From contig JAPLEZ010000099.1 of NCBI GenBank assembly GCA_026390935.1, positions 1 to 39,594 of the forward strand: 39,594 nucleotides of DNA, written 5' to 3'. This DNA is from Bacteroidota bacterium (GTDB lineage: Bacteria > Bacteroidota > Bacteroidia > Flavobacteriales_C > GCA-002722245). This document shows, piece by piece, positions 22,101-39,594 of the stretch. Under the pieces are notes generated by a model. It was not told the origin of the DNA, searched no databases, and was given only the letters and a program-made list of their open reading frames with translations. The position numbers were made by a program, and so were the translations under genes. The first letter of the stretch is position 1. Every line of letters begins with the position of its first letter.

Positions 22101-22141
22101 GAGAAGCTTTCAGCTTCCTTGTGCTGTTAAGATAAAATCAG
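22101..22141. repeat. Short hairpin repeat, copy 1 (second copy at about 26623)
   Basis: GAAGCTTTCAGCTTC (22103-22117) is a hairpin with 6-bp arms and a 3-base loop. The 40 bases from here to 22140 match 26623-26662 closely (shared CTTTCAGCTTCCTT and AGATAAAATC blocks, with a changed middle). Both copies lie downstream of convergent gene pairs, so they may act as terminators or processing sites, although no T run follows. The rest of the Fic-SRPBCC gap holds nothing else recognisable. Confidence 0.6.
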
Positions 22142-23747: not shown

Positions 23748-24196
23748 TGGTGAATCCTATCGACAAAGATAAAACTACTGAAGTGCCATCACTGCTTCCT
23801 TATCCTCATCATATTGGGAGTATTGTGGTGCGTCCCGAAGATCAAGGCAAAATAAAAGGAAGGGCGTATTCGGCCATGATAGAACAAACTTCCCGACAGT
23901 TGATGCAAATACAAAAACAAGCCGAATTATTGGCAGCACAGGCCAATGAAATTAAAAGAAGGGTAGAGGTGAGCGAAAAAATATATCAAGCAAAAATGTC
24001 CTTCGAGCCCTTTATCGGCCATACCTATCATCTCTACCAAAGAGGCGATGAATATGTTTTAATGATGATAGGCCCCGATGAATGGGGAAGGTCAAAGAAA
24101 AATAATTTGGAATTTATATCCTCCGCAACATTGTTAAGCGATCACACTTGGGAGACCGAAAATTTATTTGATTTTTCTCAAGTTGTGAAATTGTAG
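23747..24196 (+). CDS. DUF2452 protein
   Basis: 149 residues. The start ATG shares a base with the folE stop. Features seen: HIGSIVVRPEDQGKIKGRAYSAM near the N terminus, then a long helix (MIEQTSRQLMQIQKQAELLAAQANEIKRRVE) likely to be a coiled coil, then FEPFIGHTYHLYQRGDEYVLMMIGPDEWG. The whole matches my memory of the DUF2452 family, common in this phylum and of unknown function. No signal peptide or membrane segment. Its place at the end of the pterin unit suggests co-expression, but a link to pterins is not shown by the sequence. Confidence 0.8.
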   Translation: MVNPIDKDKTTEVPSLLPYPHHIGSIVVRPEDQGKIKGRAYSAMIEQTSRQLMQIQKQAELLAAQANEIKRRVEVSEKIYQAKMSFEPFIGHTYHLYQRGDEYVLMMIGPDEWGRSKKNNLEFISSATLLSDHTWETENLFDFSQVVKL

Positions 24197-24264
24197 GTAT
24201 TCATCTTTTGACGTCCAATACGTCCTTGCGAGAATTTTGTACTCAAAATTGAAGCGATCTCTCC

Positions 24265-24466
24265 GCCTCTCCAAGTTTAGCTCAGCGAACTTGGAGATTT
24301 CGCGCATGCACATAGAAGCTTTCAGCTTCTTTTCTCGAAGAGAAACATATTGAAATCCGAAGCTGCGCTTCTCCTCTAATATTAAATTTGCAAAAAAAAG
24401 GAAGTTGAAAACTTCCAAGTAAAGCCGTAGTTTCGCAAAGTTCCGCTATCGATTTGCTTCGAGGCG
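24265..24466. repeat. ~200-bp structured MITE-like repeat, copy A
   Basis: Aligns over its full length with 25880-26083 at roughly 90% by eye. It holds a chain of hairpins: CTCCAAGTT/AACTTGGAG (24269-24297), GAAGCTTTCAGCTTC, TTCTCGAAGAGAA, and GGAAGTTGAAAACTTCC. The outer parts (TTTAGCTCAGCGAACTT at the left, AAAGTTCCGCTATCGATTTG at the right) are imperfect inverted copies of each other. No reading frame of note and no obvious target-site duplication. A small hairpin AATTTTG-TACT-CAAAATT (24233-24250) lies just to the left and may end the DUF2452 transcript. Confidence 0.8.
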
Positions 24467-24491
24467 AAGTGCAAATGTAACAGATGACTTT

Positions 24492-25136
24492 ATGATTAGA
24501 CACGTTAGTATATTAATATTCGGTGTGACACTTGGTCTGTTTGCTTGCAATTCGTCAGCCGACAAACAAGAAAGAAATATTGAACAATCTATAGTGATTG
24601 ATAGTGTTCAGTTGATAGAGAGCAAATCGATCAAAGCCGCTACTGAACAAGAGCAAAGTAACAATTGTGTTCGTGGATAAGCAGAACCAATAATCAAAAG
24701 GACGGTATTCCCAAAGACCAAGTTCATATTGAATTCTGACAGTTTAACTGCAACTGAAACTATCGACTTTGATAATGGGGACAAATTGATAATTAAAAAT
24801 TTGGGATGTGAATATTACATACTTACGTTTCGCTTTGAGACTTCACGTTTTCAAGATGACACAAATAATATTCAATATTGGTACAAGAAAACAGTTTTGT
24901 TAGTAAGTGAACTTTACAAAGGACTTGACGCACCAATCGACATAAAAAAAGGTGTCGACAAATTAATAACTCATATTGACGAAGATATGCTCAATAATTA
25001 CGCAAATTTAAAATTCGGACAAGAAATCGATTATGGCGGTGACGAAATTAGGGACTTCTTAACCATTGATAAAGTTGAAAAATTGACTGATAAAAAATTT
25101 GCAATAACTATTTCGTTTTCGACCGGAGCTTTGTGA
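24492..25136 (+). pseudogene. Lipoprotein gene of unknown function interrupted by an in-frame TAA
   Basis: Reading from ATG 24492, a lipoprotein signal (ILIFGVTLGLFAC, lipobox Cys19) is followed at 24678-24680 by TAA. The same frame then stays open to 25136: AEPIIKRTVFPKTKFILNSDSLTATETIDFDNGDKLIIKNLGCEYYILTFRFE and onwards, which reads as a normal folded domain with no start codon better than TTG 24729. Two separate genes in the same frame are much less likely than one 214-codon gene with a nonsense codon. The domain (YWYKK, ELYKGLDAPIDIKKG, KKFAITISFSTGAL) is not one I can name; similar exported proteins occur in this phylum. The gene is flanked by repeat sequence on both sides. Confidence 0.75.
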
Positions 25137-25137
25137 T

Positions 25138-25180
25138 CAGCTTAGCTCAGCGCACTCTCAGGGCGGAGATTTTATTTAAA
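25138..25180. repeat. Fragment resembling the left end of the ~200-bp repeat
   Basis: TTAGCTCAGCG is identical to the left part of copies A and B and is followed at about the right distance by GGAGATTT. It lies right after the stop of the interrupted lipoprotein gene. The match is short, so it may be a decayed third copy or chance. Confidence 0.35.
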
Positions 25181-25190
25181 GTGTAATATC

Positions 25191-25841
25191 ATGAAGACAG
25201 CAGTAACTATATTATTTTTGACTTTCAGCTCATGTTTTTTGTTTGGACAAAAGTATTCTGTGACAATTGACTCGTTGACTAAGACCAACATTGAAAAGCT
25301 ACCGAAGAGCAAACGATTTAAGTTTGACAGCATCTTAAATAAGCGCCTTACAATTGACTTTTTTAGTAGACTTGACACCACAGTCTTTGACTACGCTTTT
25401 ATTGAAGAACGTTTTTGCTATTCTGACACTTCAGGACAAGTGATTGAGAGATATTTTACAGCCATTGACACTATTCCAAAGTATGTTTACATTGATGGAG
25501 TATTTTCGGATCCTAGCAAAATATATGACGGATTCTTAATTTGGTATTCAAAAAATATAACCTGCAATTACACTTTATTTCCACTTATTGGTGCCTATTC
25601 AAAACTCAAACCGACGCAAGAAATTTCTTATGCAAAAAGACAAATATGGTCACACGGTTGTGTTGTTGATGAAAATAGCAAGTCTAATTTTAAGAAAAGA
25701 AGAACAAAAGAATTAAAGTCAACTTACCAGATTATGACTATGATTGATAAGGCAAATAGAAGAATTGTCGTGTCAATTCAATTCCCACCAACAAGACCAA
25801 AATTTGAAACATATAGCTACAACGGAGTTTGGGATTGGTAG
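25191..25841 (+). CDS. Exported protein of unknown function
   Basis: 216 residues. A clear signal peptide (AVTILFLTFSSCFLFGQ) is followed by a mature part beginning KYSVTIDSLTK. The body has TIDFFSRLDTTVFDYAFIEERF, IDTIPKYVYIDGVF and ends SIQFPPTRPKFETYSYNGVWDW. I do not recognise a family; there is no membrane segment after the signal and only scattered Cys. It lies between two repeat copies in the same direction as its neighbours, with its own start and an intact frame, so it is likely to be a real gene. The same island holds the interrupted lipoprotein gene. Confidence 0.65.
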   Translation: MKTAVTILFLTFSSCFLFGQKYSVTIDSLTKTNIEKLPKSKRFKFDSILNKRLTIDFFSRLDTTVFDYAFIEERFCYSDTSGQVIERYFTAIDTIPKYVYIDGVFSDPSKIYDGFLIWYSKNITCNYTLFPLIGAYSKLKPTQEISYAKRQIWSHGCVVDENSKSNFKKRRTKELKSTYQIMTMIDKANRRIVVSIQFPPTRPKFETYSYNGVWDW

Positions 25842-25879
25842 TCCACAATATGGGGACAGCAAGCAACTGCTAATTCCTT

Positions 25880-26083
25880 GCCTCTCCACGTTTAGCTCAG
25901 CGAACTTCGGGATTTCGCGTATGCACTTAGAAGCTTTCAGCTTCTTTTCTCGAAGAGAAACATATTGAAGAACGAAGCTACGCTTCTCCTCTTAATATCA
26001 AATTTGCAGAAAAAGGAAGTTGAAAACTTCCAAGTAAACTCGTAGTTTCGCAAAGTTACGCTATCGCTAAACTTTGCGAGGCG
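25880..26083. repeat. ~200-bp structured MITE-like repeat, copy B
   Basis: Same orientation as copy A. The left hairpin is decayed here (CTCCACGTT against AACTTCGGG), while the right one is perfect (TCGCAAAGT/ACTTTGCGA, 26048-26079). Left TTTAGCTCAGCGAACTT and right AAAGTTACGCTATCGCTAAA form an imperfect terminal inverted repeat. The inner hairpins GAAGCTTTCAGCTTC, TTCTCGAAGAGAA and GGAAGTTGAAAACTTCC are unchanged from copy A, as expected if structure is kept. It reaches to within 26 bases of the next start codon. Confidence 0.8.
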
Positions 26084-26109
26084 GATACGCGGAAAACTTA
26101 AGTGCACCA

Positions 26110-26544: not shown

Positions 26545-26589
26545 TAGGCTCTTCGTTAAGTTTGTGACTTCACGGAGGACGCCCCCTCT

Positions 26590-26677
26590 CCGTTAAGTTT
26601 TCAACTTAACGGAATCTTTTCTTGAAGCTTTCAGCTTCCTTTTGATAGCAAGATAAAATCTTGAAGAAGAGATTCCG
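26590..26677. repeat. Nested hairpin cluster between convergent genes, possible terminator
   Basis: CCGTTAAGTT-TTC-AACTTAACGG (26590-26612) is a perfect 10-bp hairpin. Overlapping it, GGAATCTTTTCTTGAAG (26611-26627) pairs with CTTGAAGAAGAGATTCC (26661-26677) with two mismatches, enclosing GAAGCTTTCAGCTTC. The 26623-26662 part is copy 2 of the short repeat at 22101. It lies between the unknown plus-strand gene and the end of the molybdenum operon on the minus strand, where it could stop both transcripts. Confidence 0.65.
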
Positions 26678-26715
26678 CGAAGCTGAAAGCTACTCGGTGA
26701 ATGAGCTAACAAGCC

Positions 26716-38485: not shown

Positions 38486-39594
38486 ATGAAATCAATAACT
38501 CTACTCTTTTTTACTTTCAGTTTTACATTGGGATTTTCGCAATGGTCTAGCGATTCAACTTTGAATAATGCAGTTTGTACAGAGATATATGACCAACAGG
38601 ACTTAAAAATAACAGAAGATGGTAAAGGAGGTGCCATTATTTCTTGGCTGGATTATCGCAATGATCCTTTATTAAAAGCAGGAGATGTATTTGTGCAGAG
38701 AATTGATGCAAATGGATTTGTTAAATGGACCGCTAACGGCATAGCTGTGTGCACCAATGCGAGTGATCAATACGGAATTGTGATTGAATCAGATGGTGTT
38801 GGTGGGGCATATTTAGCGTGGGTTGACAGACGCAACGGAAATAGGGACATTTATGCTCAGCATCTTGATTCAAATGGTATAGCAAAATGGACTGCTGATG
38901 GTATTGCTGTTTGTACCACTGCTCAAACACAGCAAAATGTTCGCATCGTGAGCAATGGAGTTGATGGGTGCATACTCGTTTGGGAAGATCAGGTAAGTAG
39001 CTTTGATGTGTTTGCACAAAAGATTAACGGCAGTGGTGTTGTGCAATGGAGTGCACAAGGACTTAATGTGAGTTCTTCTTTGGGAGATCAAATTAATCCT
39101 AAAGCAGTTAGTGATGAAGCGGGGGGCGTTATTGTGACTTGGCAAGATAAAAGAAATGGTTCGGATTACGATATCTACGCTCAGCGTGTTTCAACGGATG
39201 GAATTGTACTTTGGACTGCCAATGGAAAGGTGATTTGTAATTACGCAGGAACACAATCGAATCCTAAAATCGCCAGTGATTTTAATGGCGGAGCAGTGAT
39301 TGCTTGGCAAGACAAGCGAAATGGTTTGGATTACGATATTTACGCTCAGTATATCAAGGGAGATGGCGCCACTTCTTGGTTGGCAGGTGGTAAAGCAGTG
39401 AGCACGGCAACAGGTTCGCAATCGGCCATCGATATGACGTCTGAGGCTGGCAGCGGCGTAATCATTGCTTGGAAAGATTCCCGTCAAGGAAATTCAGATA
39501 TTTATGCTCAAAAAATTAATTTTTCGGGTGCTATTCAATGGCTGGCCAATGGAATGGTGGTGGTGAATTCTGTTTTCGATCAAATAAATCCAAA
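38486..39594 (+). CDS. Exported tandem-repeat (beta-propeller-like) protein, 5' part
   Basis: Open from ATG 38486 to the window end, 369 complete codons with no stop. A signal peptide (ITLLFFTFSFTLGFSQ) is followed by about six repeats of 53-55 residues. Each has GGAxIAWxDxRNG, DIYAQxIxxxG, xxWxANGxxVC and a variable link; examples are VIAWQDKRNGLDYDIYAQ and VTWQDKRNGSDYDIYAQR. Such WxDxR...DIYAQ repeats look like blades of a beta-propeller; surface proteins with T9SS domains often have them, so a sorting domain beyond the window is expected but not seen. The first repeat is the most different. Confidence 0.8.
   Translation, partial: MKSITLLFFTFSFTLGFSQWSSDSTLNNAVCTEIYDQQDLKITEDGKGGAIISWLDYRNDPLLKAGDVFVQRIDANGFVKWTANGIAVCTNASDQYGIVIESDGVGGAYLAWVDRRNGNRDIYAQHLDSNGIAKWTADGIAVCTTAQTQQNVRIVSNGVDGCILVWEDQVSSFDVFAQKINGSGVVQWSAQGLNVSSSLGDQINPKAVSDEAGGVIVTWQDKRNGSDYDIYAQRVSTDGIVLWTANGKVICNYAGTQSNPKIASDFNGGAVIAWQDKRNGLDYDIYAQYIKGDGATSWLAGGKAVSTATGSQSAIDMTSEAGSGVIIAWKDSRQGNSDIYAQKINFSGAIQWLANGMVVVNSVFDQINP

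Follow-up and report, generated by a model that had tools for sequence, protein, structure and literature searches.

The closest described relatives of the repeats analysed here are the structured sequences linked to RAYT genes. The account of TnpA_REP subclass 2.6 by Quentin et al. (2018; PMC6006769), corresponding to RAYT group 5 of Bertels, places this subclass in Bacteroidetes and gives it a median protein length of 179 aa and the motifs NH[LIV]H, WQ and YIH[QN]NP; it also describes atypical secondary structures on both sides of the genes, with copies elsewhere in the genome. A further type of element built around a RAYT-like gene, the TIRtron, has been assigned the motif GGGGWSAS (PMC3733652).

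The window, that is, the whole 39,594-nt stretch of DNA analysed here, contains two copies, A and B, of a multi-hairpin repeat (Table 1). Elements A and B are probably non-autonomous copies of a RAYT-linked element whose complete version is a unit on contig C135 of the same genome (G000), a reading to which we assign a probability of about 0.85. The kind of element is already known but little studied, and this example is well resolved.

Anatomy and copies of the repeat

Elements A and B lie in the same orientation, are 88 % identical over 187 nt ungapped (89.3 % over 205 nt) and are each other's best full-length match, bearing out the first-pass annotation in treating them as a real repeat pair. 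The imperfect terminal inverted repeats described there are correct as far as the inverted termini go; these are, more exactly, two arms of ~85 nt with their own hairpins, and the right outer end of A is degenerate. There are three hairpins per arm: the outer one, the inner one (GAAGCTTTCAGCTTC or GAAGTTTTCAACTTC) and a third of small size, visible for example in CCTCGAAGAGG and TTTTTCCGCAGGAAAAA. In an alignment of 66 arms, 98.7 % of the cells in the outer and inner stems were paired, against 34–52 % for control stems slid by 1–3 columns, and double-sided changes in the stems amounted to 124 cells versus 36.5 in shuffles. The third hairpin was left out of this count because its register shifts among subtypes. 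RNA folding gave z scores against shuffles of -3.4 for A, predicted to form mostly local hairpins, and -5.5 for B, predicted to form one long hairpin. Folded as DNA, A was weakly better than shuffles (z -1.75) and an intact relative on C135 was far better (z -12.8).

Table 1. Position of the features discussed in the text; coordinates are those of the window except for the C135 unit, numbered on its own contig.
Feature	Position	Strand	Basis or remark
Element A	24263..24467	+	Inverted hairpin-arm pair, right end degenerate; arm-model limits
Element A, left arm	24263-24345	+	Arm model, 71.1 bits
Element A, left arm, outer hairpin TCTCCAAGTT..AACTTGGAGA	24268..24297	+	Sequence reading; stem covariation, 66 arms
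Element A, left arm, inner hairpin GAAGCTTTCAGCTTC	24315..24329	+	Sequence reading; stem covariation, 66 arms
Element A, right arm	24389-24465	-	Arm model, 47.5 bits
Element A, right arm, inner hairpin GGAAGTTGAAAACTTCC	24400..24416	-	Sequence reading; stem covariation, 66 arms
Lipoprotein-like frame	24492..25136	+	Outside the elements; one in-frame TAA, 24678-24680
Exported protein, 216 aa	25191..25841	+	Outside the elements; no known family
Element B	25878..26084	+	Inverted hairpin-arm pair; arm-model limits
Element B, left arm	25880-25960	+	Arm model, 65.9 bits
Element B, right arm	26004-26084	-	Arm model, 70.7 bits
Second-arm-type element	26582..26691	-	Matches arms of the C106 RAYT
C135 flanking arm	C135:213-297	+	Arm model
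C135 RAYT gene, 181 aa	C135:300-845	-	Arms of the same repeat on both sides
C135 flanking arm	C135:896-981	-	Arm model

The repeat produced 50 BLAST matches at E ≤ 0.01 in its own genome, which merge into about 32 distinct places and include 18 elements with both ends; copy counts combine these matches with an arm model that was seeded with the C135 copies and then iterated across the fetched stretches. In most copies, two ~85-nt arms are paired in inverted orientation; the remainder consist of single or partial arms. Elements with both ends number 29 in two genomes (18 of them in G000), 28 measuring 174–232 bp and one 770 bp. None of 25 examined places in G000 lies within a long gene and all are intergenic where checked, with the element on C48 crossed by a short 243-nt frame; the majority of the copies are situated at the 3′ ends of genes. 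The proposal of a dispersed, non-coding, MITE-like repeat therefore agrees with what was found in these about 32 intergenic places, and the family is not a matter of two copies only, kept at the same place in relatives. A search of the plasmid collection with the repeat returned no match.

Neighbouring elements are clustered above random expectation, with five pairs within 2 kb versus 0.5 expected. On C116 and C135 genes alternate with elements, an arrangement that raised the idea of an integron cassette array with attC core sites, and the region G000:C116:29000-41500 (L045) consists of small genes, mostly on the same strand, interspersed with no fewer than five elements, complete or partial. 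In loci L003, L007, L012 and L013 the right outer hairpin carries a common replacement like AAGCCATTACCTATGGCTTTTCCTCTTAATATCAAATG, as if this variant had spread independently.

The window holds other repeated sequences. Immediately to the left of A (24221-24260) there is another short repeat around GTCCTTGCGAGAATTTTGTACTCAAAATTGAAGC, related copies of which adjoin elements at C23, C84 and C80, on C116 and in G002. A lone inner-hairpin remnant GAAGCTTTCAGCTTC at 22102-22126 is matched weakly by both arm models, and a possible decayed element fragment, TTAGCTCAGCG ... GGGCGGAG, was noticed by eye only at 25137-25175. Imperfect direct repeats close to the end of the window (39138-39521) are possibly inside a repetitive protein gene.

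RAYT genes, arm types and spread of the unit

A search with the PF01797 profile identified three Y1 transposases in the genome. The gene of one of them lies between arms of the A/B repeat, in a unit of ~770 bp (G000:C135:212-981). Its product conserves NHVH, WQ and YIHDNP, with the HUH and Tyr motifs intact, and scored 104.7 bits against NF047646 (NCBIfam, REP-associated tyrosine transposase; cut-off 80) and 22 bits, far under the cut-off of 55, against the IS200 model; a search by sequence among solved structures gave no match for the RAYT. The full-length transposase element with the same ends that the first-pass annotation had recommended looking for was thus found, and this unit is the parent of the A/B-type repeats.

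The second RAYT, on C106 (181 aa; NHVH, WQ, YIHNNP), is flanked by a second arm type that is also dispersed and includes an element of the window (Table 1). Its relatives in G001 and G003 carry the C106 arm type, and the RAYT of G004 and a partial RAYT of G001 have other arms. The motif of the third Y1 protein (C118) is YVELNP, and arms of these kinds did not show up in the sequence inspected around it. We also examined 12 distant Bacteroidota RAYTs with usable flanks from named genomes, taking five shuffles of each as control: 11 were flanked on both sides by inverted sequences scoring above shuffles, and the flanking inverted sequences of the remaining one (L090) were not above the control.

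Between contigs, copies agree in the spacer and not just in the arms (93 % for C23 and C135, 94 % for C48 and C42), and identity drops to a background of about 0.3 outside the element ends; therefore, it is the whole unit that spreads. Target duplications, for which the first-pass annotation had advised checking the ends, were not present in the 29 elements, where the mean best direct repeat of 1.69 nt equals that of shuffled flanks (1.69). Of 58 ends, 45 have C as the second base before the modelled terminus, usually in the combination CC, CT or CA. Since cleavage at CT or CA is known for characterised TnpA_REP proteins (PMC8266576), this C may mark the cut.

The short copies retain both arms, with a short spacer instead of the RAYT gene. 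In the mechanism that we propose, the RAYT would act in trans, recognising the folded arms on single-stranded DNA, such as the lagging-strand template, cutting beside the outer end and joining the ends elsewhere; the entire 174–232-bp unit would in this way be moved or copied without target duplication. By analogy with the literature on TnpA_REP proteins and IS200/IS605 (PMC6006769, PMC8266576, PMC3116915), recognition, cutting and movement are most likely carried out by the C135 RAYT.

Distribution in relatives and alternative origins

The C135 RAYT subtype occurs only in G000 and its sister species G002 among five sampled genomes of the genus, with 96 % identity over 127 aa, the copy in G002 being cut short near a contig end. 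The repeat has 45 matches in G000 and 28 in G002, against 1, 1 and 0 in the three genomes lacking this RAYT subtype. G002 also contains clear full-length elements of the second type, and an intact second-type RAYT was not found there. In these five genomes, which are few, the first-type RAYT subtype and arm type co-occur, and the correspondence is looser for the second type.

Orthologous intergenic intervals of G000 and G002 hold an element in both genomes in four cases (C42, C45, C113, C80) and only in G000 in another four (C140, C23, C85, C108); additionally, C42 has a second-type element in G000 that is missing from G002. These results indicate that copies have been gained or lost, and the common presence at four intervals that some of them are old. 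No base-exact empty site was obtained at the intervals compared, because the remainder of the intergenic sequence is too different. One orthologous pair (L102:1171-1344 and L119:1352-1527), compared between G000 and G002, is 95 % identical in the element and ~83 % in the flanks, for which constraint, conversion or later insertion are possible causes. The stretch that adjoins element c on C135 of G000 is found in G002 next to the RAYT element, suggesting exchange between copies or a deletion between them.

The L102/L119 pair, together with the strong conservation of the stems through compensatory change and the location of most copies at gene 3′ ends, could also be accounted for by a structured RNA or transcription terminator that is kept for regulation and multiplied through duplication without any transposase. 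We consider this very improbable, because compensatory change is equally expected for hairpins that serve as transposase substrate, Rfam gives no family for the repeat, the arms surround a transposase gene, and sister genomes without that RAYT are nearly devoid of copies. A regulatory side effect of the element is nevertheless possible alongside a transposase-linked origin.

The genes between A and B had been proposed to form an island that moved as one unit. The broken lipoprotein of that proposal is real, being a single frame with one in-frame stop, and neither bracketed gene matched any known family. The nine other family genomes yielded neither this interrupted frame nor the gene following B on its right; for the exported protein they yielded one homologue (30 %), located in G001 where the stretch contains no arms. 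DUF2452, the left neighbour, is present only in G003 among four relatives, where the sequence continues differently and similarity stops at 24153, and the MobA-like right neighbour is absent from all four. If A and B were the ends that brought the intervening genes here in one piece, their mutual best match in the same orientation and the near-private nature of the bracketed genes among the ten family genomes would be expected. However, two copies on C116 are as close to A and to B in the aligned portion (91–96 %), the gene to the right of B is equally private, and both arms are present in A and in B, so that each is its own unit. Likewise, the stretch between them could not be tied to a clean empty site in any of the four relatives, other copies sit between unrelated genes, and no relatedness was found among the genes bracketed at different clusters. 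Joint movement, with genes and repeats connected by position alone, is thus unsupported and very improbable. Most likely, the two repeats bracket ordinary accessory genes located in an insertion-tolerant region, and recombination between A and B, as direct repeats, could delete these genes.

A classical MITE, that is, a deletion derivative of an insertion sequence with a DDE transposase, moving by cut-and-paste with target-site duplication, would likewise have short, non-coding, dispersed copies with terminal inverted arms but is mostly refuted, and highly improbable, since the flanks show no such duplication, the enzyme between the same ends is of the HUH/Y1 type and the arms are covarying hairpin chains. 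From the MITE-like idea of the first-pass annotation the many-copied, non-coding character therefore holds, the enzyme being of the HUH/Y1 type that acts on single strands and not a DDE transposase.

For this repeat, the analysis established the limits, the covarying hairpins, the parent copy and the occurrence in related genomes, and it paired two arm types with two RAYTs within one genome. Tests of whether repeats are moved by this RAYT group would thereby have a defined substrate; in other respects, the repeat is an ordinary dispersed one. As a wider and rather doubtful extension, a poorly studied RAYT group might mobilise whole multi-hairpin units of ~200 bp, with several RAYT/arm-type pairs per genome, and the resulting clusters of direct repeats might be sites of gain and loss of small accessory genes by recombination, as at C135 and possibly in the window.

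Comparison with known systems

The repeat differs from DDE-type MITEs in having neither target-site duplications nor a DDE transposase, the element with the same ends encoding a Y1 enzyme. With IS200/IS605 it shares an HUH/Y1 enzyme, hairpin ends and the absence of target-site duplication, although those elements have subterminal hairpins in place of the two inverted multi-hairpin arms seen here. As in TIRtrons/TIRYTs (PMC3733652), a RAYT-like gene is enclosed by long terminal inverted repeats (TIRs), which in the TIRtrons are in part double palindromes, and moderately abundant families of dimeric TIRs occur elsewhere in the genome; the species and sequences are different.

Resemblance to REPINs (Bertels and Rainey, 2011; PMC3116915) lies in the two inverted hairpin units with a spacer, their intergenic and dispersed location, the tie of each repeat type to its own RAYT, and the possibility of both long-hairpin and local-hairpin folds, which the predictions for B and A resemble. 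As expected for a RAYT/REPIN system (REPtron), there are an intact RAYT, inverted repeats flanking it on both sides and many extragenic copies, mostly inverted doublets; however, the single unit is not the 20–40 bp of a REP but an arm of about 85 nt that forms two or three hairpins, and copies number tens rather than hundreds. The GTAG mark is also inconsistent: of 72 arms, 28 have GTAG or GTGG ahead of the inner hairpin and 64 have [GT]T[AG]G there, the last two bases being paired in the stem (columns 56-57).

Compared by motif and length with the published description of subclass 2.6, the C135 protein is likewise a Bacteroidota RAYT, of 181 aa, with NHVH and WQ and with structured flanks that have dispersed copies; its YIHDNP deviates from YIH[QN]NP, which the YIHNNP of the C106 protein fits, and the dispersed copies are here whole two-arm units. 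The repeat is best filed as a non-autonomous REPIN/TIRtron-like element of a Bacteroidota RAYT similar to subclass 2.6, and we label it REPIN/TIRtron-like and RAYT-linked because its arms exceed the length of a REP and the GTAG/GTGG mark is limited to the fraction of arms given above.
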